Shown piece by piece: positions 3,054-61,977 of a DNA stretch of 64,000 bases (positions within the stretch are counted from its first letter, which is position 1; each line of letters opens with the position of its first letter). This DNA is from Sulfurovum lithotrophicum (GTDB taxonomy: Bacteria > Campylobacterota > Campylobacteria > Campylobacterales > Sulfurovaceae). The notes under the pieces are model-generated. The model ran no database searches. It had not been told where the DNA came from and was given only the letters and a program-made list of their open reading frames with translations. The position numbers and the translations under genes are program-made. The DNA lies in contig NZ_CP011308.1 of assembly GCF_000987835.1 (NCBI RefSeq), forward strand, positions 1,736,001 through 1,800,000, written 5' to 3'.

Positions 3054-3061
3054 ATTGTACA

Positions 3062-4618: not shown

Positions 4619-6619
<2,001 letters not shown>

Positions 6620-6626
6620 TTACAAA

Positions 6627-6719: not shown

Positions 6720-6850
6720 TGATGGTGCTACTATAGAATAATTCAGATAAAAATAATCTTAATTGATTTTTAAAGTACAGCAAAAGGAGAAATATGTACA
6801 ATTAGCAAAAAAATTGATATAATTCAACTAAAATTTTTAAAGGAGCAGTC

Positions 6851-7118: not shown

Positions 7119-7137
7119 GTTTACCTGGTTTTCATTA

Positions 7138-25200: not shown

Positions 25201-25649
25201 CTTCCTGCATGAAGCGGGTTACCCATGTATTTCTTCACAAAAAGATCTTTGGGATTCTTGGTTCTTTTATACTCACCGATCTCGACCCATGCAGTCAGAC
25301 CACACTGCGCCTCACAGTTGGAACATACGGTAGGAACCAGCATGAACTCATTGACTTTGATTCCGTCAGGGTTGTCTTCGCCTCTGATACCGTTTCTTTC
25401 GGCACCACCTCTTTTCCAGTCATCGCCATCCAACTCTTTAAAGCTGTCCCACTGTTCGAACGGTGGATAGAATGAAAGTGTTTCCGGTGTCGCCGTGAAC
25501 GATTTGTCTTCAGCTGTTGCAGGGGTATCTACGATCGTCTCGAACACACCTGCTGCCAGAGTTGCACCGGCTACAGAATAGGCTGTCCCTTTCAGGAAAC
25601 TTCTTCTGCTCTCTATAAAATTCGTATCATTTTTCATTGATTTTGTCAT
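22296..25649 (-). CDS. Tat-exported molybdopterin oxidoreductase, catalytic subunit (PsrA/TtrA/SoeA-like)
   Basis: 1117 residues. A twin-arginine signal (SRRSFLK, residues 14-20) predicts export with cofactor. A 4Fe-4S site is formed by C109, C112, C116 and C155. The probable molybdenum ligand is C251 in SHTNICSAGARQGT, which argues for the polysulfide/tetrathionate/sulfite branch of the DMSO-reductase family rather than the serine-ligated TMAO/DMSO enzymes. The protein is longer than PsrA (about 760). Substrate is inferred to be a sulfur compound from the adjacent sox locus; arsenate-type enzymes are not excluded. GGAGG precedes the ATG. Confidence 0.85.
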   Translation of the reverse strand: MTKSMKNDTNFIESRRSFLKGTAYSVAGATLAAGVFETIVDTPATAEDKSFTATPETLSFYPPFEQWDSFKELDGDDWKRGGAERNGIRGEDNPDGIKVNEFMLVPTVCSNCEAQCGLTAWVEIGEYKRTKNPKDLFVKKYMGNPLHAGSRGRNCAKGYASQTQMYDPDRIPFPLMRAPGSKRGEGKWVRTTWDEAMAKIGKKMHDTLKKGDEVSKKMIMYHVGRPNENGFGHRVPHSMGLDGYDSHTNICSAGARQGTIQWTNDDRNSPDWANAKLVFLQSSHAADAGHYFQQSAGYIADARRKGAKLVVMDPRLSNSAGIADLWIPVWPGTEAALYLHLANRILNETDIHGKSLVNHAFFKNWVNWDQLMNDKEQLSLMVSKGYMKQVPQDESYESFIEMLKEIYSPYTKEFVIKECKMEGYGHKLDELFEMFIDAGDRITTYLWRAGTIGHRGSWMNTRSGFFPLALRGAMAGNIGGVGLHHWHVISVNGKGDAATVAGERPPRVDVWNEIAWPPEYPLSSFEMSHIMPHLLLDDEWRAKWKKKGLNSIPEKLAVWIPRMYNPVWINPDGFRWIEALKREDKIEMAFNLSPTWSETNWYCDFVLPVGLAGERHDQSSEPTKPARWLSFKNPALRVALEKLGWKPKDPARATLEAHTTAGLGEIWEEVEFWANIMVHHVDPDGSLGVRKFWASKEDPNRAVTIPEWYQAAFDKLPNLRKTAKLKYPNSKYPNYEMMRDMGTWLEEDHIFRPQERPLKREGDKYIAHGHEYDISDVEKDEYGTLLVEDHVFGGMKPIGVEVDGEIKQGFHTLSGKLEFYCKWLTEWKWPEYAIPIYPRNAQERKDMVHLVTQVHHDFMQKDNDFALNTVFRLPYNIHTRSVNSKHLMEISQNHNPVWINTEDAKRLGIKREDPIKVTITDTVSGLESGYFIAMAVPTEGTMPGVLACSHHAGRWKLKNAVEIPGFEHKLGVLGLGAPLFDMTMDGKIGTMKPKEGINEGMQARRDTWQFKEYNKDLDNIWWDGLSGSWQNAVAPSHPDPIGGNHAWHQKVSIEKAGKDDKIGDIYVNYDNNFKVYQAWRDRLTRPLAPGDKLRRPVHIKRPAVPLTLKAYTVDIKA

Positions 25650-25660: not shown

Positions 25661-26608
25661 TTAACTCAAGTTTAGCAATTGTGGGATTTTAAGCCATACA
25701 TCTTTTGCCATATACAGCCCGATCAATGCCAAAATAGCGGCGAATCTAAGCATTGTTTTATTGTCTTCTTTCATATTCTTGACTGCAAGGAAGAATGGAA
25801 TGATAAATCCAAGCACCATTGCGAACCAGAACTCTGCATTGTACTCTCCGCCGGAGTGAACGTATGCTAATGTCGCTTCTGCTTCAGCAGACTTGAATGA
25901 GAAGAAATACTCACCCATATACATCAGGAAGGAGAAGAACGTCGCGATCGCCAATACAAGTGCAAGGTCTCTTCTGCTTTCTTTGCTCCATGAACCGGAG
26001 ATGAAGATAAGACCTGCCGAACCTGCCAGGAGCGCTGCCCACATCATTTGCATGACTTCCGCAGGCGCTTGCCACAACTCTCTCGCAGAAGCTTCCGCCA
26101 TGATGATCGCTGTGTACAGTGTTACAGGAACTGCCAGGAACACAACAAATGGAAAGAGTTTCTCATACAAAGCACTGTGTTCTCTAGCCGCTTTGGCGCA
26201 GGCACCGTGTTTTCTGACATTTGGGTGTGCATCAAAGTAACCAATTACCATCAGGATCGTAATAAGGCCGGTAAAGAGCGACGCCATCCAGGCACCGACC
26301 GTGATTGCTGATGTCCAATGCGGGTGCAGGAAGATATTGATCATTCTGTACGGCTGATGAAGGTCCGTCAGCGTGAAAAGAAGGAAAATATTTAAAAAGA
26401 TGAAGGAGATAAGCGGCATCATCCATCTAATGTTCGGCATCTCTTCTTTCTTGTGTCTGTATAGCAAAAATGCACCTACAAGGATCACACCTGTACCCAC
26501 AGATTTAGCCCACATGTTTAATGTGATCATCCAGCCCCAGATAATACCTGGAAGCGCGACATCCAATGTTACAACAGCCTGTGTTGCGTGAATTCCATGT
26601 TCTACCAT
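25661..26608 (-). CDS. NrfD/PsrC-type membrane subunit
   Basis: 315 residues with about eight membrane segments, beginning WGWMITLNMWAKSVGTGVILVGAFLLYR. The stretch LTDLHQPYRMINIFLHPHWTSA matches the quinone-pocket region of NrfD/PsrC proteins. It anchors the B and A subunits and exchanges electrons with the quinone pool. The start codon shares one base with the ferredoxin-subunit stop (TAATG), so it is translationally coupled. Confidence 0.88.
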   Translation of the reverse strand: MVEHGIHATQAVVTLDVALPGIIWGWMITLNMWAKSVGTGVILVGAFLLYRHKKEEMPNIRWMMPLISFIFLNIFLLFTLTDLHQPYRMINIFLHPHWTSAITVGAWMASLFTGLITILMVIGYFDAHPNVRKHGACAKAAREHSALYEKLFPFVVFLAVPVTLYTAIIMAEASARELWQAPAEVMQMMWAALLAGSAGLIFISGSWSKESRRDLALVLAIATFFSFLMYMGEYFFSFKSAEAEATLAYVHSGGEYNAEFWFAMVLGFIIPFFLAVKNMKEDNKTMLRFAAILALIGLYMAKDVWLKIPQLLNLS

Positions 26609-27363
26609 TAGTGACCTCCCTCTTCTTCATGAGATTCATGTGAATTGTCAAAATCCATAAAACTTTTATTGTCCAGATGTTCATGCGAAGTGAACGGTGC
26701 AAGGAATCTGTCTATCACACCGTGATGCGGATCACCGATATGCTTCAGGTGTGTCACGTTGTTGAACAGGTTATATCCTTCAAGACGCTGCTGAGCAAGC
26801 GGATTCAATGTCTGGTTACCACCACCTACATAAAAATGTTTCGGGGTAGTGTGTTTTTCTGGTTTACGTACCTGAACAGCACCCTGATGCTCCATGATAT
26901 ACTGGGAAATATGGCTGGTGTCATCATCGATATCACCGAAAATATTTGCCTGTACAGGACAGATAACGACACAGGCAGGCATCATACCGCTTTCGACACG
27001 GTGTGCACAGTAGGTACATTTGTCAGCCGTGTTCGTTTCAGGGTCCATATAGATAGCACCGTAAGGACAGGCCATCATACAACCCGCACATCCAATACAT
27101 CTCGAAGAGTCGACATTCACGATGCCGTTCTCCAAATAATGCAATGCCGATACCGGACAGATTCTCTCACACGGAGCACTTTCACAGTGATTACATCTCA
27201 ACGGTGTAAAAGATCTCGACGTGTCAGGGAATGTCCCTATATCAATATACTTTACACGCAGACGCCAAGAGCCGAGCGGAACTTCATTTTCCACTTTACA
27301 AGCCACTTCACAACCTTTACAACCCATACACAGGTTCAGGTCAACTAAGAAACCTAGTTTCAT
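26608..27363 (-). CDS. Four-cluster ferredoxin subunit (PsrB/DmsB-like)
   Basis: 251 residues. Cysteine groups are CMGCKGCEVAC (12-22), CNHCESAPCERICP, CIGCAGCMMACP and CTYCAHRV...CVVICP, the standard set for four 4Fe-4S clusters of DMSO-reductase-family electron-transfer subunits. A His-rich tail ends the protein. AAGGAGGT stands 4 nt before the ATG. First gene of the operon. Its first 125 bp lie inside unit 1 of the tandem array and are copied twice more as part of the chimeric genes. Confidence 0.92.
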   Translation of the reverse strand: MKLGFLVDLNLCMGCKGCEVACKVENEVPLGSWRLRVKYIDIGTFPDTSRSFTPLRCNHCESAPCERICPVSALHYLENGIVNVDSSRCIGCAGCMMACPYGAIYMDPETNTADKCTYCAHRVESGMMPACVVICPVQANIFGDIDDDTSHISQYIMEHQGAVQVRKPEKHTTPKHFYVGGGNQTLNPLAQQRLEGYNLFNNVTHLKHIGDPHHGVIDRFLAPFTSHEHLDNKSFMDFDNSHESHEEEGGH

Positions 27364-27635
27364 ACTACCTCCTTGAATTTTAGCTATGCTTATAATAATT
27401 ATAAGTACCCGTTAAACGGTGGTTTCGCGGGTTAACGCATAGATTAAGTCTATTCAACTTTGTATTAAAAATGCTTTAGAATCTTCAATAAAAAGAGGCT
27501 TTGGGGCGAACTGTTTCAAAAGTAGCGCTTTTGATCAATTGTCGTGACAGTCAACATCAGTAATAGTGTATTTGGATTTTATGCGGTAGAACAATATGAA
27601 TGTTCTACCAGCTTTTGAGAATGTTTTTGAGGATT
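27364..27635 (-). promoter_or_regulatory. Control region of the molybdoenzyme operon
   Basis: 272 bp without a gene. A near-palindrome CTTATAATAATTATAAG (about 27388-27405) can supply a -10 box for the minus strand. Just upstream is CCCGTTAAACGG and, 16 bp further, GGGTTAACG, giving an inverted CGTTAA/TTAACG pair that could be an operator. The DUF302 gene ends at 27636. Because the region lies inside the repeat unit, identical copies precede both chimeric genes at 31247-31518 and 35130-35401. Confidence 0.5.
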
Positions 27636-28604
27636 TTACTCTGTAAGTTCTGATAAAATTTTATTCATGCTTCCCTGTGCCTCTTCAAGAACCTCAAGTG
27701 ACTCTTTATTTTTTATATCCATTGAAGAGATCCAGTTATAAACACTCGGAAAAGCCAAATGCATACTGTTCTCACCCTTCTTCTTATACATATAGAGTGA
27801 ACATGGTGCGTACGCCCCTGCTTCAGGATGTGTTTTTGCAACCGTATAGATGACTGGAAGTTTACAGATAGAGTAGACATCATAGAAATCATAACCTTCA
27901 TATTTGTTCTCTTTAAAGTCATGATTAAGGTCATTGGTTCCTGCTATCACAAAACCATAGGTAGAGAGCGTTCCCTCAAACTCCATCTTAAACTCTTCCT
28001 TTTCATCTTCCCACTCTTCGGGATCCATCTCCATCTCATAACTTGAAACCAAAGAGCCTTTTGGCTCCTGCACACTGTAGGAGAGTGCTTCAAACTTGCC
28101 TTGAGGCATGGCGGTTTTCAGAGCCTCTTTTACCATTGCTCCTATCTTTACAAGTACCGCATCATCTGCAGGAATCTTCAATATTTTTGCCATCGCCTCT
28201 ACTCTGAGAGAAGAGATTGAAATTTTCTTATCACCTTTTTTGGTATAAATTGACATACTCATAGGAGAGAACATACCGATACTTGGATACTTTTTTGCCA
28301 GCTCAAGTGTCTCTTTTTTACTAAAGAATGTAAAAAGATTATAGACATCAAAACTTGTCTCTTTAAACTTTTTCTTAAACGGTACGTTCATATCTCTGTT
28401 TGCAGAGATAAAGAAACCCTCTTTTTTAAATGCCGCTTCAATAGTTGCGGGTGTAATCTTCCCGCCTGCATTGTCTGAAGTGAATATCTGAATATCACCT
28501 GCTGTACTCTTTTGTGCTGCCGGAGATGCAGATTTCACTTCTTTTGCCCATACTGTACCCATAAATAACGAGAGACACAATATTCCTTTAACTACTATTT
28601 TCAT
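27636..28604 (-). CDS. Exported double-DUF302 protein, copy 1
   Basis: 322 residues. A signal peptide (MKIVVKGILCLSLFMGTVWAKE) predicts a periplasmic protein. Two DUF302-like domains follow: about 60-190 (DVYNLFTFFSKKETLELAKKYP; MFSPMSMSIYTKKGD) and about 200-320 (YDFYDVYSICKLPVIYTVAK; YAPCSLYMYKKKGE). An acidic linker (EMEMDPEEWEDEKEEFKME) separates them. DUF302 proteins recur near sulfur-oxidation genes, but their activity is not known. The ATG at 28604 has AAGG upstream; an in-frame ATG at 28637 is less likely. It has its own promoter with the sox-type box. Confidence 0.85.
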   Translation of the reverse strand: MKIVVKGILCLSLFMGTVWAKEVKSASPAAQKSTAGDIQIFTSDNAGGKITPATIEAAFKKEGFFISANRDMNVPFKKKFKETSFDVYNLFTFFSKKETLELAKKYPSIGMFSPMSMSIYTKKGDKKISISSLRVEAMAKILKIPADDAVLVKIGAMVKEALKTAMPQGKFEALSYSVQEPKGSLVSSYEMEMDPEEWEDEKEEFKMEFEGTLSTYGFVIAGTNDLNHDFKENKYEGYDFYDVYSICKLPVIYTVAKTHPEAGAYAPCSLYMYKKKGENSMHLAFPSVYNWISSMDIKNKESLEVLEEAQGSMNKILSELTE

Positions 28605-28630
28605 CTTTACAACCTTATGTTTAAGTTGCT

Positions 28631-28665
28631 GTATCATACCAATTAAGTGTAAAAATAATGTAAAA
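28631..28665 (-). promoter_or_regulatory. Sox-type promoter box before DUF302 gene, copy 1
   Basis: On the minus strand TTTTACA is repeated with an 11-bp period. The second repeat continues as ACACTT, then 6 nt, then TATGATAC as the -10. The soxX promoter (45104-45138) has the same 35-nt layout. Two direct repeats one helical turn apart are typical for OmpR-family regulators. Confidence 0.6.
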
Positions 28666-28675
28666 TTTGCTACCG

Positions 28676-29113
28676 TTACGGTCGTATATAGATATATCCC
28701 CGCAACTGCCTTTCTATCAATTCAACAATCCCTGCAGTGACCACTTCCACACCATCTATAAGATCTTTTTTCTCTATATGCAGTGTCCGCATGGTGTTAC
28801 CGCATGCGATGAATTCCACATCATAAGTCATGAGTGCTTCGACGCGTTTTCTAATGTCTCTATCCCCATGTTTTAAAAGTGCTTCTATCCCTTGAGAATA
28901 GGCAACAATCACCACTTCAACATTCTCCGGTCCGTAAAATTTCATCACATTATTTGCGGAACTCAAGACATGATTGATTTCTTTTCTGTCTCTAACAGTA
29001 ATGGGGAATATAAATTTTCTTGGATTATCGATGGCTGGCTTGGGATTGGCAAACTCTGTCTCTGCCGACACAAACTGAATCATACAGATACACACTAAAA
29101 GTATCTTTTTCAC
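28676..29113 (-). CDS. Periplasmic DsrE-like protein, copy 1
   Basis: 145 residues with a signal peptide (MKKILLVCICMIQFVSAET). The mature part has the DsrE/F fold pattern: VEVVIVAYSQGIEALLKHG in the middle and the conserved cysteine region VEFIACGNTMR (C104), ending GYIYIRP. Cytoplasmic DsrE proteins carry sulfur as persulfide; an exported version suggests sulfur handling in the periplasm. The start overlaps the upstream gene by 4 nt. Confidence 0.85.
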   Translation of the reverse strand: MKKILLVCICMIQFVSAETEFANPKPAIDNPRKFIFPITVRDRKEINHVLSSANNVMKFYGPENVEVVIVAYSQGIEALLKHGDRDIRKRVEALMTYDVEFIACGNTMRTLHIEKKDLIDGVEVVTAGIVELIERQLRGYIYIRP

Positions 29114-29922
29114 TGTTTTTTCCTTTTTATTTTTTCTGCCTCTTTAAGAATCTCCAGGAAATCCTCTTTGCTCCATGAGCCGGGGATACGCTTTGTCTTT
29201 ACACTTTCACTTTGCTGGTCGGCAAAGACAAAAAAGAATGTCGGGGTCATACTGACACTTAACCCAAGAGGCAGAGGTTGCTTGCTGACATCTACATGAA
29301 GTACGATGAACGATTTTTTCAGAAGATCAATGACTTCTGCATCAGAAAAAACCCGTTTCTCCATTTTTTTGCAATATCTGCAATGGGGTGCGGTTGCCTT
29401 GATCAGAATAGTTTTATGTTCCCCTTTTGCCCTTTTGAGTATTGTACCAAAAAAACCATCTTCCTCTTTTGCTTTTTTATGAATCTTCTTGTCATAATCA
29501 TACACAAAATTACTAATGGCTTCAATGTCTTCCGTGGTCAGCTTTCCTTTGAGACTGGGCATCGTTTTAAAGCACTTTCCGATCTTTGGATTAAGCACGC
29601 TCTTGCTTTTATCGGGATAAATAATATAATCGGCAATGAACGAACTGACCTCCAAACGCTGTATCTCTTCATCTGAACGGGGATCTCCGATCTTTTCTTT
29701 CATGCTTCGTGAGATCTGGCTGATCGTAGGGGCTTTGAGCTTCAACAGTGTATTGTTTGCTTCGAAAAAATTTTCCGCAAGTTTCTCTTCTGCGATATGA
29801 AGTTGGTGACACTTGGAACAAATGGTCCGATAAACCGATTCTCCCCTGTCGGCATACAATGATGCAACACATGCCATACCAACTACAACACTTCTGAATA
29901 GATACAGAGCACTATATTTCAT
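29110..29922 (-). CDS. Cytochrome c-thioredoxin fusion protein B, copy 1
   Basis: 270 residues. After a signal peptide, one c-type heme site CSKCH (35-39) with likely distal Met121 (KTMPSLKG) forms a cytochrome domain. A thioredoxin domain follows with active site CRYC (181-184) and cis-proline loop MTPTFFF. The pairing suggests electron transfer between heme and a disulfide or persulfide in the periplasm. It is a paralogue of protein A next door. SoxW-like thioredoxins normally lack the heme domain. Confidence 0.88.
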   Translation of the reverse strand: MKYSALYLFRSVVVGMACVASLYADRGESVYRTICSKCHQLHIAEEKLAENFFEANNTLLKLKAPTISQISRSMKEKIGDPRSDEEIQRLEVSSFIADYIIYPDKSKSVLNPKIGKCFKTMPSLKGKLTTEDIEAISNFVYDYDKKIHKKAKEEDGFFGTILKRAKGEHKTILIKATAPHCRYCKKMEKRVFSDAEVIDLLKKSFIVLHVDVSKQPLPLGLSVSMTPTFFFVFADQQSESVKTKRIPGSWSKEDFLEILKEAEKIKRKKQ

Positions 29923-30704
29923 TTTTTTGCCTTTTTGCTTTTTGCCGCTTCTTTTGCCTCTTTAAGCAATGCAAGAAAATCCTGTTTCCCCCAGGCTCCG
30001 GGAATATTTCCAAGTACATTGCCATATTTGTCTATAAAAATAAAACTTGGCGTAAGTTCTGCTTTTAACCCCAAAGGCAAAGCATGGGTAGAAATATCAA
30101 TGGATACCGGAATAAAATCTCTCTCTATTGCCCGAATTACCTCCGTATCTATCATCACTTCCCGTTCCATTTTTCTACAAAAATGGCATGTTCGGCTCAT
30201 CGCTTCGATCATTATGATCTTATCTTCTTTTTTTGCTCGCTGCAAGGCTTTTTCAAATCCTTCGAATTTAACACTTTTCTGTTTTACGATCTCTTCGTCA
30301 AAATCATACAGATATGTGCCTATCTCTTCGAGTTCCTCTTCACTCACCTTGCCTTTAAGTGATGGCATCGTATCAAAGGCTCTCATCACCTCATCAAGAC
30401 AGAGACTTTTATCGCGGTCAGGATTCATTACATAGCTACTCATGAATGCTATGACCTCCATGCGGTGTATCTCCTTATCCCCTTTGGGATCACCAATACG
30501 CTGTTTCAGTCGATAGGAGAGTTGATTGAGTGTCGGTGCTTTAAGTTTTAGCAGGGTATTGTTATGGTCCGCAAAATTCTCTTTAAGTTCTAACATGGGC
30601 ACAAAAGGTGTGTGACAGGACAGACAATGCTTTTCAAACAGCATTTTACCCTCATCTGCCCACACACTCAGCAACATAGCGGCTATCAAGCCTATGATTT
30701 TCAT
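29919..30704 (-). CDS. Cytochrome c-thioredoxin fusion protein A, copy 1
   Basis: 261 residues: signal peptide, heme site CLSCH (27-31), likely Met113 (DTMPSLKG), then a thioredoxin domain with CHFC (173-176) and LTPSFIF. Same architecture as protein B with many shared stretches (NNTLLKLKAPT), so the pair arose by an old duplication. Overlaps both neighbours by 4 nt. Confidence 0.88.
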   Translation of the reverse strand: MKIIGLIAAMLLSVWADEGKMLFEKHCLSCHTPFVPMLELKENFADHNNTLLKLKAPTLNQLSYRLKQRIGDPKGDKEIHRMEVIAFMSSYVMNPDRDKSLCLDEVMRAFDTMPSLKGKVSEEELEEIGTYLYDFDEEIVKQKSVKFEGFEKALQRAKKEDKIIMIEAMSRTCHFCRKMEREVMIDTEVIRAIERDFIPVSIDISTHALPLGLKAELTPSFIFIDKYGNVLGNIPGAWGKQDFLALLKEAKEAAKSKKAKK

Positions 30705-31246
30705 TCTTCATCCTCTATCATTTCCAACTCTTTATAGGCATCCAGAACATTCCGGGCATGAAGAACATCATACAGTTTCATATTTTTATACTGTGGCATG
30801 GTGACTTTTTTCGTAATATCTTCCATACCCACATCTTCATCCAGGGCATACTGTACCTCTTTTTTCATCTCTTGCAGATAACTTCTAAAATGTTCAGTAA
30901 CGGTCGCATCAGTCTCATAGCCGTGCCCGCCAACGATTACTTTGGCACCATACGCATCTATCATGTCCAATGCCTCAAGTGAACCGACCAAAGAGCCGTC
31001 CCGCAAAGAAGTGATTCTGCCGCTAAAAACAAGATCTCCGACAAACAGTACCTTCTGCCCCTTCAAAAAGACGATCAGATCCCCTTTGGTATGTGCCGCC
31101 TTTACAGGCTGACTGATCATGATATCAATATACTTTACACGCAGACGCCAAGAGCCGAGCGGAACTTCATTTTCCACTTTACAAGCCACTTCACAACCTT
31201 TACAACCCATACACAGGTTCAGGTCAACTAAGAAACCTAGTTTCAT
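30701..31246 (-). CDS. Chimeric gene: ferredoxin N-terminus fused to hydrolase C-terminus, junction 1
   Basis: 181 residues. Residues 1-42 equal the ferredoxin subunit (including CMGCKGCEVAC) and 43-181 equal residues 166-304 of the hydrolase at 38467. The fusion is in frame and keeps the ferredoxin ribosome site and promoter region. It lacks the hydrolase signal peptide and the metal motif HDHDDH, keeping only the later His and Asp (AAHTKGD, FVGDLVF, GGHGYE). A functional hydrolase is unlikely. It is a by-product of the tandem duplication, but its promoter may now drive the downstream module. Confidence 0.85.
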   Translation of the reverse strand: MKLGFLVDLNLCMGCKGCEVACKVENEVPLGSWRLRVKYIDIMISQPVKAAHTKGDLIVFLKGQKVLFVGDLVFSGRITSLRDGSLVGSLEALDMIDAYGAKVIVGGHGYETDATVTEHFRSYLQEMKKEVQYALDEDVGMEDITKKVTMPQYKNMKLYDVLHARNVLDAYKELEMIEDEE

Positions 31247-31518
31247 ACTACCTCCTTGAATTTTAGCTATGCTTATAATAATTATAAGTACCCGTTAAAC
31301 GGTGGTTTCGCGGGTTAACGCATAGATTAAGTCTATTCAACTTTGTATTAAAAATGCTTTAGAATCTTCAATAAAAAGAGGCTTTGGGGCGAACTGTTTC
31401 AAAAGTAGCGCTTTTGATCAATTGTCGTGACAGTCAACATCAGTAATAGTGTATTTGGATTTTATGCGGTAGAACAATATGAATGTTCTACCAGCTTTTG
31501 AGAATGTTTTTGAGGATT

Positions 31519-32487
31519 TTACTCTGTAAGTTCTGATAAAATTTTATTCATGCTTCCCTGTGCCTCTTCAAGAACCTCAAGTGACTCTTTATTTTTTATA
31601 TCCATTGAAGAGATCCAGTTATAAACACTCGGAAAAGCCAAATGCATACTGTTCTCACCCTTCTTCTTATACATATAGAGTGAACATGGTGCGTACGCCC
31701 CTGCTTCAGGATGTGTTTTTGCAACCGTATAGATGACTGGAAGTTTACAGATAGAGTAGACATCATAGAAATCATAACCTTCATATTTGTTCTCTTTAAA
31801 GTCATGATTAAGGTCATTGGTTCCTGCTATCACAAAACCATAGGTAGAGAGCGTTCCCTCAAACTCCATCTTAAACTCTTCCTTTTCATCTTCCCACTCT
31901 TCGGGATCCATCTCCATCTCATAACTTGAAACCAAAGAGCCTTTTGGCTCCTGCACACTGTAGGAGAGTGCTTCAAACTTGCCTTGAGGCATGGCGGTTT
32001 TCAGAGCCTCTTTTACCATTGCTCCTATCTTTACAAGTACCGCATCATCTGCAGGAATCTTCAATATTTTTGCCATCGCCTCTACTCTGAGAGAAGAGAT
32101 TGAAATTTTCTTATCACCTTTTTTGGTATAAATTGACATACTCATAGGAGAGAACATACCGATACTTGGATACTTTTTTGCCAGCTCAAGTGTCTCTTTT
32201 TTACTAAAGAATGTAAAAAGATTATAGACATCAAAACTTGTCTCTTTAAACTTTTTCTTAAACGGTACGTTCATATCTCTGTTTGCAGAGATAAAGAAAC
32301 CCTCTTTTTTAAATGCCGCTTCAATAGTTGCGGGTGTAATCTTCCCGCCTGCATTGTCTGAAGTGAATATCTGAATATCACCTGCTGTACTCTTTTGTGC
32401 TGCCGGAGATGCAGATTTCACTTCTTTTGCCCATACTGTACCCATAAATAACGAGAGACACAATATTCCTTTAACTACTATTTTCAT
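31519..32487 (-). CDS. Exported double-DUF302 protein, copy 2
   Basis: Translation is identical to copy 1 (27636-28604), including the signal peptide and both DUF302 domains. It lies in unit 2 of the array. Confidence 0.85.
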   Translation of the reverse strand: MKIVVKGILCLSLFMGTVWAKEVKSASPAAQKSTAGDIQIFTSDNAGGKITPATIEAAFKKEGFFISANRDMNVPFKKKFKETSFDVYNLFTFFSKKETLELAKKYPSIGMFSPMSMSIYTKKGDKKISISSLRVEAMAKILKIPADDAVLVKIGAMVKEALKTAMPQGKFEALSYSVQEPKGSLVSSYEMEMDPEEWEDEKEEFKMEFEGTLSTYGFVIAGTNDLNHDFKENKYEGYDFYDVYSICKLPVIYTVAKTHPEAGAYAPCSLYMYKKKGENSMHLAFPSVYNWISSMDIKNKESLEVLEEAQGSMNKILSELTE

Positions 32488-32513
32488 CTTTACAACCTTA
32501 TGTTTAAGTTGCT

Positions 32514-32548
32514 GTATCATACCAATTAAGTGTAAAAATAATGTAAAA
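32514..32548 (-). promoter_or_regulatory. Sox-type promoter box before DUF302 gene, copy 2
   Basis: Identical to the site at 28631-28665 (offset 3,883): paired TTTTACA repeats, ACACTT, 6 nt, TATGATAC. Confidence 0.6.
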
Positions 32549-32558
32549 TTTGCTACCG

Positions 32559-32996
32559 TTACGGTCGTATATAGATATATCCCCGCAACTGCCTTTCTAT
32601 CAATTCAACAATCCCTGCAGTGACCACTTCCACACCATCTATAAGATCTTTTTTCTCTATATGCAGTGTCCGCATGGTGTTACCGCATGCGATGAATTCC
32701 ACATCATAAGTCATGAGTGCTTCGACGCGTTTTCTAATGTCTCTATCCCCATGTTTTAAAAGTGCTTCTATCCCTTGAGAATAGGCAACAATCACCACTT
32801 CAACATTCTCCGGTCCGTAAAATTTCATCACATTATTTGCGGAACTCAAGACATGATTGATTTCTTTTCTGTCTCTAACAGTAATGGGGAATATAAATTT
32901 TCTTGGATTATCGATGGCTGGCTTGGGATTGGCAAACTCTGTCTCTGCCGACACAAACTGAATCATACAGATACACACTAAAAGTATCTTTTTCAC
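32559..32996 (-). CDS. Periplasmic DsrE-like protein, copy 2
   Basis: Identical to the 145-residue protein at 28676-29113, with signal peptide and Cys104. Confidence 0.85.
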   Translation of the reverse strand: MKKILLVCICMIQFVSAETEFANPKPAIDNPRKFIFPITVRDRKEINHVLSSANNVMKFYGPENVEVVIVAYSQGIEALLKHGDRDIRKRVEALMTYDVEFIACGNTMRTLHIEKKDLIDGVEVVTAGIVELIERQLRGYIYIRP

Positions 32997-33805
32997 TGTT
33001 TTTTCCTTTTTATTTTTTCTGCCTCTTTAAGAATCTCCAGGAAATCCTCTTTGCTCCATGAGCCGGGGATACGCTTTGTCTTTACACTTTCACTTTGCTG
33101 GTCGGCAAAGACAAAAAAGAATGTCGGGGTCATACTGACACTTAACCCAAGAGGCAGAGGTTGCTTGCTGACATCTACATGAAGTACGATGAACGATTTT
33201 TTCAGAAGATCAATGACTTCTGCATCAGAAAAAACCCGTTTCTCCATTTTTTTGCAATATCTGCAATGGGGTGCGGTTGCCTTGATCAGAATAGTTTTAT
33301 GTTCCCCTTTTGCCCTTTTGAGTATTGTACCAAAAAAACCATCTTCCTCTTTTGCTTTTTTATGAATCTTCTTGTCATAATCATACACAAAATTACTAAT
33401 GGCTTCAATGTCTTCCGTGGTCAGCTTTCCTTTGAGACTGGGCATCGTTTTAAAGCACTTTCCGATCTTTGGATTAAGCACGCTCTTGCTTTTATCGGGA
33501 TAAATAATATAATCGGCAATGAACGAACTGACCTCCAAACGCTGTATCTCTTCATCTGAACGGGGATCTCCGATCTTTTCTTTCATGCTTCGTGAGATCT
33601 GGCTGATCGTAGGGGCTTTGAGCTTCAACAGTGTATTGTTTGCTTCGAAAAAATTTTCCGCAAGTTTCTCTTCTGCGATATGAAGTTGGTGACACTTGGA
33701 ACAAATGGTCCGATAAACCGATTCTCCCCTGTCGGCATACAATGATGCAACACATGCCATACCAACTACAACACTTCTGAATAGATACAGAGCACTATAT
33801 TTCAT
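32993..33805 (-). CDS. Cytochrome c-thioredoxin fusion protein B, copy 2
   Basis: Identical to 29110-29922 (heme CSKCH, thioredoxin CRYC). Confidence 0.88.
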   Translation of the reverse strand: MKYSALYLFRSVVVGMACVASLYADRGESVYRTICSKCHQLHIAEEKLAENFFEANNTLLKLKAPTISQISRSMKEKIGDPRSDEEIQRLEVSSFIADYIIYPDKSKSVLNPKIGKCFKTMPSLKGKLTTEDIEAISNFVYDYDKKIHKKAKEEDGFFGTILKRAKGEHKTILIKATAPHCRYCKKMEKRVFSDAEVIDLLKKSFIVLHVDVSKQPLPLGLSVSMTPTFFFVFADQQSESVKTKRIPGSWSKEDFLEILKEAEKIKRKKQ

Positions 33806-34587
33806 TTTTTTGCCTTTTTGCTTTTTGCCGCTTCTTTTGCCTCTTTAAGCAATGCAAGAAAATCCTGTTTCCCCCAGGCTCCGGGAATATTTCCAAGTAC
33901 ATTGCCATATTTGTCTATAAAAATAAAACTTGGCGTAAGTTCTGCTTTTAACCCCAAAGGCAAAGCATGGGTAGAAATATCAATGGATACCGGAATAAAA
34001 TCTCTCTCTATTGCCCGAATTACCTCCGTATCTATCATCACTTCCCGTTCCATTTTTCTACAAAAATGGCATGTTCGGCTCATCGCTTCGATCATTATGA
34101 TCTTATCTTCTTTTTTTGCTCGCTGCAAGGCTTTTTCAAATCCTTCGAATTTAACACTTTTCTGTTTTACGATCTCTTCGTCAAAATCATACAGATATGT
34201 GCCTATCTCTTCGAGTTCCTCTTCACTCACCTTGCCTTTAAGTGATGGCATCGTATCAAAGGCTCTCATCACCTCATCAAGACAGAGACTTTTATCGCGG
34301 TCAGGATTCATTACATAGCTACTCATGAATGCTATGACCTCCATGCGGTGTATCTCCTTATCCCCTTTGGGATCACCAATACGCTGTTTCAGTCGATAGG
34401 AGAGTTGATTGAGTGTCGGTGCTTTAAGTTTTAGCAGGGTATTGTTATGGTCCGCAAAATTCTCTTTAAGTTCTAACATGGGCACAAAAGGTGTGTGACA
34501 GGACAGACAATGCTTTTCAAACAGCATTTTACCCTCATCTGCCCACACACTCAGCAACATAGCGGCTATCAAGCCTATGATTTTCAT
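33802..34587 (-). CDS. Cytochrome c-thioredoxin fusion protein A, copy 2
   Basis: Identical to 29919-30704 (heme CLSCH, thioredoxin CHFC). Confidence 0.88.
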   Translation of the reverse strand: MKIIGLIAAMLLSVWADEGKMLFEKHCLSCHTPFVPMLELKENFADHNNTLLKLKAPTLNQLSYRLKQRIGDPKGDKEIHRMEVIAFMSSYVMNPDRDKSLCLDEVMRAFDTMPSLKGKVSEEELEEIGTYLYDFDEEIVKQKSVKFEGFEKALQRAKKEDKIIMIEAMSRTCHFCRKMEREVMIDTEVIRAIERDFIPVSIDISTHALPLGLKAELTPSFIFIDKYGNVLGNIPGAWGKQDFLALLKEAKEAAKSKKAKK

Positions 34588-35129
34588 TCTTCATCCTCTA
34601 TCATTTCCAACTCTTTATAGGCATCCAGAACATTCCGGGCATGAAGAACATCATACAGTTTCATATTTTTATACTGTGGCATGGTGACTTTTTTCGTAAT
34701 ATCTTCCATACCCACATCTTCATCCAGGGCATACTGTACCTCTTTTTTCATCTCTTGCAGATAACTTCTAAAATGTTCAGTAACGGTCGCATCAGTCTCA
34801 TAGCCGTGCCCGCCAACGATTACTTTGGCACCATACGCATCTATCATGTCCAATGCCTCAAGTGAACCGACCAAAGAGCCGTCCCGCAAAGAAGTGATTC
34901 TGCCGCTAAAAACAAGATCTCCGACAAACAGTACCTTCTGCCCCTTCAAAAAGACGATCAGATCCCCTTTGGTATGTGCCGCCTTTACAGGCTGACTGAT
35001 CATGATATCAATATACTTTACACGCAGACGCCAAGAGCCGAGCGGAACTTCATTTTCCACTTTACAAGCCACTTCACAACCTTTACAACCCATACACAGG
35101 TTCAGGTCAACTAAGAAACCTAGTTTCAT
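34584..35129 (-). CDS. Chimeric ferredoxin-hydrolase gene, junction 2
   Basis: Identical to the chimera at 30701-31246, including the same junction base. Two identical junctions mean that one illegitimate event made the first duplication and homologous recombination or unequal crossover added the third unit. Confidence 0.85.
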   Translation of the reverse strand: MKLGFLVDLNLCMGCKGCEVACKVENEVPLGSWRLRVKYIDIMISQPVKAAHTKGDLIVFLKGQKVLFVGDLVFSGRITSLRDGSLVGSLEALDMIDAYGAKVIVGGHGYETDATVTEHFRSYLQEMKKEVQYALDEDVGMEDITKKVTMPQYKNMKLYDVLHARNVLDAYKELEMIEDEE

Positions 35130-35401
35130 ACTACCTCCTTGAATTTTAGCTATGCTTATAATAATTATAAGTACCCGTTAAACGGTGGTTTCGCGGGTTA
35201 ACGCATAGATTAAGTCTATTCAACTTTGTATTAAAAATGCTTTAGAATCTTCAATAAAAAGAGGCTTTGGGGCGAACTGTTTCAAAAGTAGCGCTTTTGA
35301 TCAATTGTCGTGACAGTCAACATCAGTAATAGTGTATTTGGATTTTATGCGGTAGAACAATATGAATGTTCTACCAGCTTTTGAGAATGTTTTTGAGGAT
35401 T

Positions 35402-36370
35402 TTACTCTGTAAGTTCTGATAAAATTTTATTCATGCTTCCCTGTGCCTCTTCAAGAACCTCAAGTGACTCTTTATTTTTTATATCCATTGAAGAGATCCA
35501 GTTATAAACACTCGGAAAAGCCAAATGCATACTGTTCTCACCCTTCTTCTTATACATATAGAGTGAACATGGTGCGTACGCCCCTGCTTCAGGATGTGTT
35601 TTTGCAACCGTATAGATGACTGGAAGTTTACAGATAGAGTAGACATCATAGAAATCATAACCTTCATATTTGTTCTCTTTAAAGTCATGATTAAGGTCAT
35701 TGGTTCCTGCTATCACAAAACCATAGGTAGAGAGCGTTCCCTCAAACTCCATCTTAAACTCTTCCTTTTCATCTTCCCACTCTTCGGGATCCATCTCCAT
35801 CTCATAACTTGAAACCAAAGAGCCTTTTGGCTCCTGCACACTGTAGGAGAGTGCTTCAAACTTGCCTTGAGGCATGGCGGTTTTCAGAGCCTCTTTTACC
35901 ATTGCTCCTATCTTTACAAGTACCGCATCATCTGCAGGAATCTTCAATATTTTTGCCATCGCCTCTACTCTGAGAGAAGAGATTGAAATTTTCTTATCAC
36001 CTTTTTTGGTATAAATTGACATACTCATAGGAGAGAACATACCGATACTTGGATACTTTTTTGCCAGCTCAAGTGTCTCTTTTTTACTAAAGAATGTAAA
36101 AAGATTATAGACATCAAAACTTGTCTCTTTAAACTTTTTCTTAAACGGTACGTTCATATCTCTGTTTGCAGAGATAAAGAAACCCTCTTTTTTAAATGCC
36201 GCTTCAATAGTTGCGGGTGTAATCTTCCCGCCTGCATTGTCTGAAGTGAATATCTGAATATCACCTGCTGTACTCTTTTGTGCTGCCGGAGATGCAGATT
36301 TCACTTCTTTTGCCCATACTGTACCCATAAATAACGAGAGACACAATATTCCTTTAACTACTATTTTCAT
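35402..36370 (-). CDS. Exported double-DUF302 protein, copy 3
   Basis: Identical to copies 1 and 2. It lies in the unit that joins the intact hydrolase gene. Confidence 0.85.
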   Translation of the reverse strand: MKIVVKGILCLSLFMGTVWAKEVKSASPAAQKSTAGDIQIFTSDNAGGKITPATIEAAFKKEGFFISANRDMNVPFKKKFKETSFDVYNLFTFFSKKETLELAKKYPSIGMFSPMSMSIYTKKGDKKISISSLRVEAMAKILKIPADDAVLVKIGAMVKEALKTAMPQGKFEALSYSVQEPKGSLVSSYEMEMDPEEWEDEKEEFKMEFEGTLSTYGFVIAGTNDLNHDFKENKYEGYDFYDVYSICKLPVIYTVAKTHPEAGAYAPCSLYMYKKKGENSMHLAFPSVYNWISSMDIKNKESLEVLEEAQGSMNKILSELTE

Positions 36371-36396
36371 CTTTACAACCTTATGTTTAAGTTGCT

Positions 36397-36431
36397 GTAT
36401 CATACCAATTAAGTGTAAAAATAATGTAAAA
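36397..36431 (-). promoter_or_regulatory. Sox-type promoter box before DUF302 gene, copy 3
   Basis: Same 35-nt layout as 28631-28665, offset 7,766. Confidence 0.6.
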
Positions 36432-36441
36432 TTTGCTACCG

Positions 36442-36879
36442 TTACGGTCGTATATAGATATATCCCCGCAACTGCCTTTCTATCAATTCAACAATCCCTG
36501 CAGTGACCACTTCCACACCATCTATAAGATCTTTTTTCTCTATATGCAGTGTCCGCATGGTGTTACCGCATGCGATGAATTCCACATCATAAGTCATGAG
36601 TGCTTCGACGCGTTTTCTAATGTCTCTATCCCCATGTTTTAAAAGTGCTTCTATCCCTTGAGAATAGGCAACAATCACCACTTCAACATTCTCCGGTCCG
36701 TAAAATTTCATCACATTATTTGCGGAACTCAAGACATGATTGATTTCTTTTCTGTCTCTAACAGTAATGGGGAATATAAATTTTCTTGGATTATCGATGG
36801 CTGGCTTGGGATTGGCAAACTCTGTCTCTGCCGACACAAACTGAATCATACAGATACACACTAAAAGTATCTTTTTCAC
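36442..36879 (-). CDS. Periplasmic DsrE-like protein, copy 3
   Basis: Identical to the proteins at 28676 and 32559. Confidence 0.85.
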   Translation of the reverse strand: MKKILLVCICMIQFVSAETEFANPKPAIDNPRKFIFPITVRDRKEINHVLSSANNVMKFYGPENVEVVIVAYSQGIEALLKHGDRDIRKRVEALMTYDVEFIACGNTMRTLHIEKKDLIDGVEVVTAGIVELIERQLRGYIYIRP

Positions 36880-37688
36880 TGTTTTTTCCTTTTTATTTTT
36901 TCTGCCTCTTTAAGAATCTCCAGGAAATCCTCTTTGCTCCATGAGCCGGGGATACGCTTTGTCTTTACACTTTCACTTTGCTGGTCGGCAAAGACAAAAA
37001 AGAATGTCGGGGTCATACTGACACTTAACCCAAGAGGCAGAGGTTGCTTGCTGACATCTACATGAAGTACGATGAACGATTTTTTCAGAAGATCAATGAC
37101 TTCTGCATCAGAAAAAACCCGTTTCTCCATTTTTTTGCAATATCTGCAATGGGGTGCGGTTGCCTTGATCAGAATAGTTTTATGTTCCCCTTTTGCCCTT
37201 TTGAGTATTGTACCAAAAAAACCATCTTCCTCTTTTGCTTTTTTATGAATCTTCTTGTCATAATCATACACAAAATTACTAATGGCTTCAATGTCTTCCG
37301 TGGTCAGCTTTCCTTTGAGACTGGGCATCGTTTTAAAGCACTTTCCGATCTTTGGATTAAGCACGCTCTTGCTTTTATCGGGATAAATAATATAATCGGC
37401 AATGAACGAACTGACCTCCAAACGCTGTATCTCTTCATCTGAACGGGGATCTCCGATCTTTTCTTTCATGCTTCGTGAGATCTGGCTGATCGTAGGGGCT
37501 TTGAGCTTCAACAGTGTATTGTTTGCTTCGAAAAAATTTTCCGCAAGTTTCTCTTCTGCGATATGAAGTTGGTGACACTTGGAACAAATGGTCCGATAAA
37601 CCGATTCTCCCCTGTCGGCATACAATGATGCAACACATGCCATACCAACTACAACACTTCTGAATAGATACAGAGCACTATATTTCAT
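36876..37688 (-). CDS. Cytochrome c-thioredoxin fusion protein B, copy 3
   Basis: Identical to 29110-29922. This copy is in the ancestral context, downstream of the intact hydrolase, porin and soxXYZAB genes. Confidence 0.88.
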   Translation of the reverse strand: MKYSALYLFRSVVVGMACVASLYADRGESVYRTICSKCHQLHIAEEKLAENFFEANNTLLKLKAPTISQISRSMKEKIGDPRSDEEIQRLEVSSFIADYIIYPDKSKSVLNPKIGKCFKTMPSLKGKLTTEDIEAISNFVYDYDKKIHKKAKEEDGFFGTILKRAKGEHKTILIKATAPHCRYCKKMEKRVFSDAEVIDLLKKSFIVLHVDVSKQPLPLGLSVSMTPTFFFVFADQQSESVKTKRIPGSWSKEDFLEILKEAEKIKRKKQ

Positions 37689-38470
37689 TTTTTTGCCTTT
37701 TTGCTTTTTGCCGCTTCTTTTGCCTCTTTAAGCAATGCAAGAAAATCCTGTTTCCCCCAGGCTCCGGGAATATTTCCAAGTACATTGCCATATTTGTCTA
37801 TAAAAATAAAACTTGGCGTAAGTTCTGCTTTTAACCCCAAAGGCAAAGCATGGGTAGAAATATCAATGGATACCGGAATAAAATCTCTCTCTATTGCCCG
37901 AATTACCTCCGTATCTATCATCACTTCCCGTTCCATTTTTCTACAAAAATGGCATGTTCGGCTCATCGCTTCGATCATTATGATCTTATCTTCTTTTTTT
38001 GCTCGCTGCAAGGCTTTTTCAAATCCTTCGAATTTAACACTTTTCTGTTTTACGATCTCTTCGTCAAAATCATACAGATATGTGCCTATCTCTTCGAGTT
38101 CCTCTTCACTCACCTTGCCTTTAAGTGATGGCATCGTATCAAAGGCTCTCATCACCTCATCAAGACAGAGACTTTTATCGCGGTCAGGATTCATTACATA
38201 GCTACTCATGAATGCTATGACCTCCATGCGGTGTATCTCCTTATCCCCTTTGGGATCACCAATACGCTGTTTCAGTCGATAGGAGAGTTGATTGAGTGTC
38301 GGTGCTTTAAGTTTTAGCAGGGTATTGTTATGGTCCGCAAAATTCTCTTTAAGTTCTAACATGGGCACAAAAGGTGTGTGACAGGACAGACAATGCTTTT
38401 CAAACAGCATTTTACCCTCATCTGCCCACACACTCAGCAACATAGCGGCTATCAAGCCTATGATTTTCAT
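37685..38470 (-). CDS. Cytochrome c-thioredoxin fusion protein A, copy 3
   Basis: Identical to 29919-30704. Its start overlaps the end of the intact hydrolase gene by 4 nt, which shows the original coupled order hydrolase, A, B, DsrE, DUF302. Confidence 0.88.
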   Translation of the reverse strand: MKIIGLIAAMLLSVWADEGKMLFEKHCLSCHTPFVPMLELKENFADHNNTLLKLKAPTLNQLSYRLKQRIGDPKGDKEIHRMEVIAFMSSYVMNPDRDKSLCLDEVMRAFDTMPSLKGKVSEEELEEIGTYLYDFDEEIVKQKSVKFEGFEKALQRAKKEDKIIMIEAMSRTCHFCRKMEREVMIDTEVIRAIERDFIPVSIDISTHALPLGLKAELTPSFIFIDKYGNVLGNIPGAWGKQDFLALLKEAKEAAKSKKAKK

Positions 38471-39381
38471 TCTTCATCCTCTATCATTTCCAACTCTTTA
38501 TAGGCATCCAGAACATTCCGGGCATGAAGAACATCATACAGTTTCATATTTTTATACTGTGGCATGGTGACTTTTTTCGTAATATCTTCCATACCCACAT
38601 CTTCATCCAGGGCATACTGTACCTCTTTTTTCATCTCTTGCAGATAACTTCTAAAATGTTCAGTAACGGTCGCATCAGTCTCATAGCCGTGCCCGCCAAC
38701 GATTACTTTGGCACCATACGCATCTATCATGTCCAATGCCTCAAGTGAACCGACCAAAGAGCCGTCCCGCAAAGAAGTGATTCTGCCGCTAAAAACAAGA
38801 TCTCCGACAAACAGTACCTTCTGCCCCTTCAAAAAGACGATCAGATCCCCTTTGGTATGTGCCGCCTTTACAGGCTGACTGATCATGAATACTTTGTCTC
38901 CTGCCTTCAAAGTAAGGTTGTCATCCACTATCGTATCGAGTTTTACAATGGAGGTCTTTCCATAAAGCTCTTTTCCCAACACACGCTGCATTCGTGTCTC
39001 CATACCGGCAACTACATTTTGCTCATAAGTCTTCGGACCTATCAACAAAGCACCTTTGCTCTTGTAAAAGCTGTTACCAAGCCAGTGGTCGTCATGATCA
39101 TGGGTTGTAATGACATATTTTACGGGAAGTTTTGCGATCTGCTGCATCTTCTCATAGGCTTGAGAAGCATAATCGTATGTGGGGCCGCTGTCGATAACAA
39201 CGAACCCCTCTTTTGTGTGAACAAAACATGTATTGACCATATTGCCACCATTCTCTTTACTGATATTTTCCAGTTTTCCAAAAAAACAGTATGTATCCTC
39301 TGCAACCTTTTTGGGTACAAGGTTGTACTCAAATGCCTGCAGAAAAAGACTCATTAGAGAGATAAGGACAATATGCTTCAT
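38467..39381 (-). CDS. Exported metallo-beta-lactamase-fold hydrolase (SoxH-like)
   Basis: 304 residues with a signal peptide (MKHIVLISLMSLFLQAFEYN). Metal ligands are complete: HDHDDH at 94-99, H175 (AAHTKGD), D194 (FVGDLVF) and H231 (GGHGYE). Periplasmic proteins of this fold occur in sox loci (SoxH) and in quinoprotein-associated clusters; thiol-ester or persulfide substrates are plausible but unproven. It is the only intact copy; units 1 and 2 keep only its C-terminal 139 residues. Starts 9 nt after the porin stop. Confidence 0.88.
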   Translation of the reverse strand: MKHIVLISLMSLFLQAFEYNLVPKKVAEDTYCFFGKLENISKENGGNMVNTCFVHTKEGFVVIDSGPTYDYASQAYEKMQQIAKLPVKYVITTHDHDDHWLGNSFYKSKGALLIGPKTYEQNVVAGMETRMQRVLGKELYGKTSIVKLDTIVDDNLTLKAGDKVFMISQPVKAAHTKGDLIVFLKGQKVLFVGDLVFSGRITSLRDGSLVGSLEALDMIDAYGAKVIVGGHGYETDATVTEHFRSYLQEMKKEVQYALDEDVGMEDITKKVTMPQYKNMKLYDVLHARNVLDAYKELEMIEDEE

Positions 39382-39389: not shown

Positions 39390-40913
39390 CTAGAAAAGAT
39401 AGTTGAATTCTAAACGGAATTCATCATATGACCAGTCTTTTTTATACTCTGTAAGACTGCCTGGTTTGAGTGTCGTATCATCCGCAGAAACATGACCATA
39501 ACGCATTCTCATTTGAAGATCTTGTGTAATATTCGTCCAGGTATCTATGTGGATTACATTAGAGTCTGAAGGTACATTCTTGTTATCATCAAAATCCTGG
39601 ATCGCATAACGGATACTTGCTTTCCATGTCGGGTTGAATTTATACACTGCTCTCAGCATGAATGTTTCAGTATTTGAGAACCAGTTGTACTGTGCCATCG
39701 CTCTGGTAAATCCACCGGTAGGGAATCCTCTCCATGGTGCAACAATATCAGCTTCATCAGCTACTTTTGAGTAACCTAATCTAAAGAAGCCCTTTTTATC
39801 TGGCATTAAAACATCTAATCTGGCATTGAAAAGACTTGAATCCAATGAACCCAATACGCTTGGATCATACCCTGCAAGAGATGCACCCAGTGCATTACTG
39901 TTACCAGCAACTGCTCCACCGCCATCGTCATTTTGAATAAATTCACGAATACCTGGTCTTACAGCCCATCCTGAATCAGAAAGAGGGATTTTATAGTGTG
40001 CTTCGATGACAAAATCCTGTAATACGCCAGGGATTTGAAGATAACTTCCTGTTAATTTCAAGTTTTTAATATATTTTGTTGTAATGTCAGCAAGATACAT
40101 ATCATGATTTGGATCTTCTCCTGCAGCAATAAAGTTATTATAATTTAAACCTTTATGTTTACCTGCGTCATCATTATTGTTCCAACTTTCACCATTTTCA
40201 TCCTTAAAAGTAATAACATCATGTGCATCTTCATGGTCTCTCAGTTTCTGTTTGCCAAACCATGCTATTCTAGCTTTTGTTTTCGGTGCAATCTTCACTG
40301 CAGCAGAAACACCATCAAAGGTATTTGGGATCATTTTTGTATCATTGGATTTAGTGAATACAGATTCAAAAAGTTGACGACCGGCTTTTACATCCACTGT
40401 CCCATTATTATATTCCAAATATCCTTGCCCTAAAGCATGTAAACCGAAATGTCCTGTTTTTTTCACTTTATAACGACTGAAAGTATCTTTCCCTGCTTTT
40501 GCGAGTCCTACATCTGCGTCATCTGGTCTCCAGAACTCCGGGTTCAATGATCCGTAATATCCCAATGTAAAACTAAAGTGATTCAAAGAGGCAGATTTAT
40601 AGATAAGACTTCCACCTATACCCATATTTTTGTTAGCATCATTGTTCGCACCATCTGCCGCCCACTGCCAATAAAATGTATTGGATCTCAAACGACCATA
40701 AAAAACACCTTCCGAAAACATATCATGTATATTATCTACGTCGCCCGGTAAAACTTTGTAGTTCAACGTCATGTTACCATTTAATGTTCTTTTTACTACA
40801 TCTTCTTTTACCGGTGCTTCTCCAGGTACGATATCACCGCCTGCCATCAAAGCAGTACTTCCCATTAATAACGTTGCCGTTACCAATCCTAATTTTATTG
40901 TTCCTTGTTTCAT
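39390..40913 (-). CDS. Outer-membrane porin-like barrel protein
   Basis: 507 residues. A signal peptide (ending STALMAG) is followed by a beta-rich sequence with alternating hydrophobic residues, a terminal phenylalanine (RLEFNYLF) and aromatic girdle-type strands (TFMLRAVYKFNPTWKASIRYAI). It resembles Campylobacterota OprD/major-porin-type proteins. Between soxB and the hydrolase gene it may import sulfur compounds, but that is context only. AAAGGA precedes the ATG. Confidence 0.8.
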   Translation of the reverse strand: MKQGTIKLGLVTATLLMGSTALMAGGDIVPGEAPVKEDVVKRTLNGNMTLNYKVLPGDVDNIHDMFSEGVFYGRLRSNTFYWQWAADGANNDANKNMGIGGSLIYKSASLNHFSFTLGYYGSLNPEFWRPDDADVGLAKAGKDTFSRYKVKKTGHFGLHALGQGYLEYNNGTVDVKAGRQLFESVFTKSNDTKMIPNTFDGVSAAVKIAPKTKARIAWFGKQKLRDHEDAHDVITFKDENGESWNNNDDAGKHKGLNYNNFIAAGEDPNHDMYLADITTKYIKNLKLTGSYLQIPGVLQDFVIEAHYKIPLSDSGWAVRPGIREFIQNDDGGGAVAGNSNALGASLAGYDPSVLGSLDSSLFNARLDVLMPDKKGFFRLGYSKVADEADIVAPWRGFPTGGFTRAMAQYNWFSNTETFMLRAVYKFNPTWKASIRYAIQDFDDNKNVPSDSNVIHIDTWTNITQDLQMRMRYGHVSADDTTLKPGSLTEYKKDWSYDEFRLEFNYLF

Positions 40914-40989
40914 TTTTCTTCCTTTTTATTTGTTCATCTTTTTGAAAAGATAAGTTTGGCTATAATTAAAAGGTGATATTTACTATCAC

Positions 40990-41060
40990 AACCATGGGTA
41001 CCCCGTCTACTTTAGAGAAAACTTGCAACGTTCTTTTGGCAAAAGAGGCGAGGTATGGTT
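40990..41060 (-). promoter_or_regulatory. Possible structured leader of the porin gene
   Basis: On the minus strand AACCAT (41055-41060) can pair with ATGGTT (40990-40995), closing a 71-nt domain. Inside, CTTTT-GCC-AAAAG forms a hairpin, and GTTGCAAG and GACGGGGTACC resemble conserved riboswitch-type blocks. A second hairpin (GTGATA/TATCAC) with CTTTTAATTAT follows at 40962-40990. I could not match it securely to a known class. Confidence 0.35.
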
Positions 41061-41072
41061 TTTAATTCAGCT

Positions 41073-42848: not shown

Positions 42849-42857
42849 TGTATCCCC

Positions 42858-43619: not shown

Positions 43620-43622
43620 TGC

Positions 43623-43961
43623 TTATCCTTTTGGTTTAAGTTTTTTGCTTTTACTGTTTTTCTCGCCTGTATTGTCTGTATAGTCCACTGTAATCTTACC
43701 TTTTCCAGGTACCTTGAAGTTAACAGAAAAGTAAGGGTTTGTTGAAACAGTTTCCCATACTTTCATCGTAGTGAACGGCTTACCGTCAAAACTGAATGTA
43801 ATGCTGTCTATATAGTGTGCAGGCTTTACCTTGCCGGTTTTCTTGTCTTTCTTTAAACCTGTATCCATCGGGTGGATGACAATAAAGTCAACTTTTACTA
43901 TATCTCCCGCTTTATACTTCTTTGGTTTGATCTTTATCATTGATTTTCGTGCTTCTGCCAT
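43623..43961 (-). CDS. soxZ: SoxZ sulfur-carrier partner
   Basis: 112 residues, no signal peptide; it is normally exported bound to SoxY. Immunoglobulin-like pattern with KIKPKKYKAGDIVKVDFIVIHPMDTG and YIDSITFSFDGKPF, matching SoxZ. Starts 56 nt after soxY. Confidence 0.95.
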   Translation of the reverse strand: MAEARKSMIKIKPKKYKAGDIVKVDFIVIHPMDTGLKKDKKTGKVKPAHYIDSITFSFDGKPFTTMKVWETVSTNPYFSVNFKVPGKGKITVDYTDNTGEKNSKSKKLKPKG

Positions 43962-44017
43962 TTGTTATCCTTTATATACTGTTATTTTTATATTGTGTAT
44001 TACCAGACCGGCTGAAA

Positions 44018-44497: not shown

Positions 44498-44514
44498 ACT
44501 TTACCTTCCTTTTA

Positions 44515-61957: not shown

Positions 61958-61977
61958 GTTAACGTACTTATTAAATT

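Follow-up and report, generated by a model that had tools for sequence, protein, structure and literature searches.

Gene content of the locus

The window analysed here is a 64,000-nt stretch of the genome of Sulfurovum lithotrophicum 42BKT, a sulfur bacterium from the deep sea; all positions below are window positions. Its central part holds sulfur-metabolism genes, and every gene at the locus is transcribed leftward. From left to right, we distinguished the following features.

22296-25649, minus strand: molybdopterin oxidoreductase, 1,117 aa, single copy, partner of the Fe-S subunit
25661-26608, minus strand: NrfD-like membrane subunit, single copy, partner of the Fe-S subunit
26608-27363, minus strand: intact Fe-S subunit gene, TtrB/PsrB/ArrB-like, 251 aa, with the left breakpoint at codon 42
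27364-27635, 31247-31518 and 35130-35401, minus strand: 272-bp intergenic region, present in every unit, with a hairpin, a palindrome and a ribosome-binding site
27636-28637, 31519-32520 and 35402-36403, minus strand: DUF302 protein, 333 aa
28676-29113, 32559-32996 and 36442-36879, minus strand: DsrE-like protein, 145 aa
29110-29922, 32993-33805 and 36876-37688, minus strand: cytochrome c-like/thioredoxin-fold protein 2, SoxW-like, 270 aa
29919-30704, 33802-34587 and 37685-38470, minus strand: cytochrome c-like/thioredoxin-fold protein 1, SoxW-like, 261 aa
38467-39381, minus strand: SoxH-like metallo-hydrolase, 304 aa, the only intact copy (Pfam Lactamase_B; SoxH-related models TIGR04558/TIGR04559)
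39390-45075, minus strand: porin-like gene, soxB, soxA, soxZ, soxY and soxX, upstream, single copy

Genes soxA and soxB were named by family models (SoxA and SoxB pass their cut-offs); the porin, soxZ, soxY and soxX were named from gene order and sequence. The metallo-hydrolase scored 189 and 183 bits against the SoxH-related models TIGR04558 and TIGR04559, both scores being below the cut-offs. The nearest solved relative by sequence of the 1,117-aa molybdopterin oxidoreductase is 2vpw, labelled thiosulfate reductase.

Elsewhere in the window, a 175-nt repeat occurs at 3061-3235 and 7137-7311 (93% identical); it has inverted ends (ATTTATCCCGGATTATGCATTAGA...), a strong hairpin (z -5.8) and some 6-7 copies in the genome, and is MITE- or REPIN-like. 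Two TPP riboswitches lie on the minus strand at 538-636 and 6616-6723, the second immediately 5' of a 641-aa ORF whose sequence resembles that of the thiamine gene thiC. A 163-nt direct repeat (61809-61971 and 63465-63627, 90% identical, the only two copies in the genome) flanks a 340-aa gene on the minus strand.

Three exact copies of a 3,883-bp unit

Positions 27239-38888 (11,650 bp) consist of a 3,883-bp unit, present three times without a single mismatch, and one additional base, and a perfect tandem triplication of a unit of this length was indeed what the initial annotation had described. The two offsets it gave were recovered as well: at offset 3,883 the self-match is unbroken over 27239-35005 (7,767 consecutive bases), and at offset 7,766 over 27239-31122. 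Chance origin of this match is excluded. The units and the points where they meet are as follows.

27239-31121, no strand: unit copy 1 (left), 3,883 bp, identical to the other two
31122-35004, no strand: unit copy 2 (middle), 3,883 bp
35005-38887, no strand: unit copy 3 (right), base 38888 being the one-base overlap
31121-31122, no strand: junction 1, from the 3' part of soxH to the 5' part of the Fe-S gene, with one shared base
35004-35005, no strand: junction 2, identical to junction 1

The base shared by the unit ends (27239, 31122, 35005 and 38888) is an A on the plus strand, so the array limits are ambiguous by 1 bp (27239-38887 or 27240-38888). When a 1,001-bp piece of the unit was used to query the whole 2,217,891-bp contig, exactly three full copies were found, all within the array, which lies at 1.763-1.775 Mb of a contig with dnaA at its start. 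Elsewhere in the 64-kb window, no sequence of 60 or more bases recurs exactly.

The unit begins inside soxH and runs through the two cytochrome c-like/thioredoxin-fold genes, dsrE, the DUF302 gene and the 272-bp intergenic region to codon 42 of the Fe-S gene. Thus, four complete genes are tripled, and the enzymes on both sides stay single. The two cytochrome c-like/thioredoxin-fold genes are not themselves a pair made by the array event; they are 42% identical, both are found in a close Sulfurovum genome with a single unit, and they go back to an older, separate duplication.

Junctions and hybrid ORFs

The internal junctions had been said to be the same and to have one base in common, which sequence comparison bore out. 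No repeats or IS elements were found at the ancestral breakpoints, where the only homology is the single shared base; when the two breakpoints were compared, 31 of 120 bases agreed, which is the chance level. An IS-mediated or repeat-mediated (homologous) origin was rejected in view of this lack of homology.

Each junction creates a new reading frame.

30701-31246, minus strand: hybrid ORF, 181 aa, Fe-S residues 1-42 in frame with SoxH-like residues 166-304
34584-35129, minus strand: second, identical hybrid ORF, 181 aa

The odds of an in-frame fusion by luck are one in three. The hybrids carry neither the SoxH signal peptide nor the metal motif THDHDDH (soxH residues 93-99), which makes hydrolase activity of the 181-aa product improbable. 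As in the intact operon, the hybrid's stop codon and the start of the following gene overlap; therefore, translation can run on through the gene set.

Single copy in relatives

The claim that a single copy was the ancestral state agrees with what relatives hold. In the close genome G003, which we take to be Sulfurovum strain NBC37-1 (closed, one contig, 2,562,277 bp), the same gene order is present once, without the junction, and its segment is 97.2% identical to the unit in a gap-free alignment. The idea that the unit was imported or is unusually diverged was rejected, as the 2.8% divergence from G003 resembles that of the neighbouring sox genes. The farther flanks of the locus have diverged from G003 more than the unit has. 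Compared with its neighbours on both sides, the porin-like gene at 39390-40913 is far more diverged from G003, by up to 22% per 500 bp.

A soxH-trx-dsrE-DUF302 run, complete or partial, was found once in 19 of 20 further relatives. Several of their contigs stop short of the sox genes or have no Fe-S operon nearby, and none of the 20 relatives has an array; the remaining genome (G074) gave no soxH match. Wherever the contig extends far enough, the run adjoins sox genes. A scan of genome contigs gave two more Sulfurovum MAG loci and two remote loci. The 100 bp spanning the junction are present only in S. lithotrophicum, twice, and absent from the other 77 genomes of the genus that were searched; the same amplification was thus found in no relative within the genus. 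Given the single copy in G003 and other relatives and the absence of the junction elsewhere, the ancestral state was single and the event postdates the split from G003.

Depending on the member of the genus, the run contains one or two trx genes and one or two DUF302 genes, which shows that gene number in this part of the operon has changed before. In three genomes (G046, G015 and G045; loci L041, L043 and L046), two diverged DUF302 genes stand side by side, an older change of gene number in the same segment.

Taken as a whole, the identical head-to-tail copies of a multi-gene segment, the two identical internal junctions between ancestral outer ends (the left Fe-S gene at 26608-27363 and the right metallo-hydrolase gene at 38467-39381 are intact, as the initial annotation held) and the close relatives with one copy and no scar place the array most likely in a well-known class, that of recent bacterial tandem gene amplifications.

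Intergenic region and possible promoter capture

About 30 bases behind the DUF302 stop codon, the 272-bp intergenic region has a hairpin, GGTAGAACA-7-TGTTCTACC, that is kept in G003. Nearer to the Fe-S gene it has a palindrome, CTTATAATTATTATAAG, located 26-42 bp before the ATG, and a ribosome-binding site, AAGGAGG. An exact or near match to the palindrome occurs at the same place upstream of the Fe-S gene in 10 of 15 Sulfurovum sequences (S. lithotrophicum included), and this conservation suggests a promoter with an operator. A scan for consensus sigma-70 promoters gave no more sites than shuffled sequences and none within the 272 bp, so the promoter role is putative, deduced from conservation; a consensus terminator scan of the area likewise did not exceed the number of hits in shuffled sequences.

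A copy of the 272-bp region stands immediately upstream of two of the three gene sets. As the fusion lies right behind a conserved, promoter-like palindromic region, the effect of the array may go beyond dosage and include promoter capture, with the two internal gene sets possibly brought under the promoter-like region of the Fe-S operon. The in-frame fusion and the presence of a promoter-like region in every unit go beyond what the initial annotation described.

Origin and age of the array

We consider the array to be a real and very recent tandem gene amplification that was present in about this form in the sequenced 42BKT culture (probability about 0.75). A single closed chromosome contains the three copies. 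In the first step, an essentially homology-free illegitimate join between Fe-S codon 42 and soxH-like codon 166 would have duplicated the 3,883 bp; candidate routes are a gyrase-type break and rejoining or template switching at a replication fork. In the second step, RecA-dependent unequal exchange between the 3.9-kb repeats would have added the third copy and would keep the copies identical. A homology-poor duplication followed by RecA-dependent expansion has been reviewed for other bacteria (PMC11721125), homology-independent junctions are common, with 36 of 104 in Acinetobacter (PMC4432121), and homology-free duplication with promoter capture has a precedent (PMC11111574). There is also a counter-precedent: experimentally confirmed spontaneous duplications in Salmonella had junction homology of at least 11 bp (PMC3411829).

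As a consequence, gene dosage is predicted to be 3x for the two SoxW-like cytochrome c-thioredoxins, for DsrE and for the DUF302 protein, but 1x for the sox enzymes, for soxH and for the Fe-S/NrfD/Mo oxidoreductase. Growth on thiosulfate in culture is the probable background, and the variant may have been selected there or merely sampled. In Sulfurovum indicum, dsrE, soxW and soxH1 beside soxABXY1Z1 are up 2.17-3.83-fold on thiosulfate (PMC10045233), which makes dosage selection in S. lithotrophicum during growth on thiosulfate plausible by analogy. A stronger, adaptive version would have the tripled SoxW/DsrE/DUF302 set rewired, two of the three sets having moved from sox control to that of the molybdopterin oxidoreductase operon through the in-frame fusion behind the conserved palindromic promoter, with better thiosulfate growth in culture as the outcome; we regard this version as doubtful.

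If mutations occur at 1e-10 to 1e-9 per base and generation and no exchange takes place between the copies, zero differences set an upper bound of ∼3e5 to 3e6 generations on the age. This bound is soft, since copies that recombine with one another stay identical as well. The initial annotation had read perfect identity as either very recent amplification or an assembly error; as far as the sequence goes this reading stands, but identity alone gives no date. Experimental systems are informative here: the loss rate of a 9.2-kb pneumococcal patAB duplication was 0.018 per generation (PMC4432121), and sdrM arrays undergo RecA expansion and loss (PMC11721125). In the absence of selection such arrays disappear rapidly, which makes a very recent origin, or selection that still acts on the present array, more likely.

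Sequencing data and alternative explanations

The 42BKT genome (CP011308, BioProject PRJNA279430) was determined from MiSeq PE300 and PacBio 20K library data with SMRT Analysis 2.3 and CLC at 852x, giving one contig; the main text of the genome paper mentions neither an array nor a repeat (PMC5588614). With its 11.65 kb the array approaches the length of a read, and the copy number of three could therefore be the assembler's choice or a population average. Accordingly, the junction may be real while the array was confined to a subpopulation or its copy number drifted from cell to cell, the assembler having fixed three. This is a serious possibility, somewhat short of an even chance; it is compatible with a real, recent amplification and concerns fixation only. 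Non-integer depths and single reads with two or five copies are on record for Bordetella pertussis cultures (PMC8942028), and tandem copy number shifts quickly, as the loss rate of the pneumococcal duplication illustrates (PMC4432121). Against drift, the closed consensus has three copies and the genome paper reports no alternative (PMC5588614).

An artefact of assembly or library construction, with chimeric or self-ligated molecules giving a false junction and the assembler inserting extra units, we consider improbable, although G003 holds one copy. Two identical non-homologous junctions, rightly placed between intact flanks, would need junction molecules to be frequent, and exact repeats of at least 60 bases are otherwise absent from the window. 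Assemblers collapse such repeats more often than they expand them, which also counts against an artefact. Finally, PacBio and Illumina data were mixed, at 852x (PMC5588614).

An ancient array, homogenized by gene conversion and maintained under long-standing dosage selection, is very improbable: zero differences by themselves cannot date the array and gene number in the segment does vary over the genus (one or two trx, one or two DUF302), yet identity extends to the hybrid ORFs and to all intergenic bases, array and junction are absent from relatives and unselected tandem arrays are usually lost fast (PMC11721125, PMC4432121).

Implications

Should the recent amplification be real, this model vent sulfur oxidizer, used also for work on CO2 fixation, has a type-strain genome with a copy-number state that goes unmentioned in the main text of its genome paper, and the copy number of the array may reflect laboratory culture. 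In that case, gene counts at the array should not be taken as traits of the species. The poorly understood SoxW, DsrE and DUF302 accessory proteins would then be a possible bottleneck in thiosulfate oxidation.

Comparison with known systems

The sox locus of G003 has an identical gene content and order, with a segment 97.2% identical to the unit, and differs by its single copy and the lack of a junction. The patAB duplication of Streptococcus pneumoniae M184 (9.2 kb) is likewise a kilobase-scale tandem, with a join that shares two bases, and its second copy came under a new upstream transcript, a case of promoter switching (PMC4432121). It differs in having two copies, in being drug-selected and in having its expression measured (PMC4432121), whereas the S. 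lithotrophicum array comprises three copies, fuses two genes in frame at its junctions and is not known to have been selected. Amplifications of sdrM in Staphylococcus aureus (7-13 kb) also show microhomology or no homology at their junctions and several copies, and one of their ends adjoins a new source of transcription (PMC11721125). They arose under laboratory drug selection (PMC11721125), in contrast to the present array, which lies in a sulfur-metabolism locus of a deposited type-strain genome.
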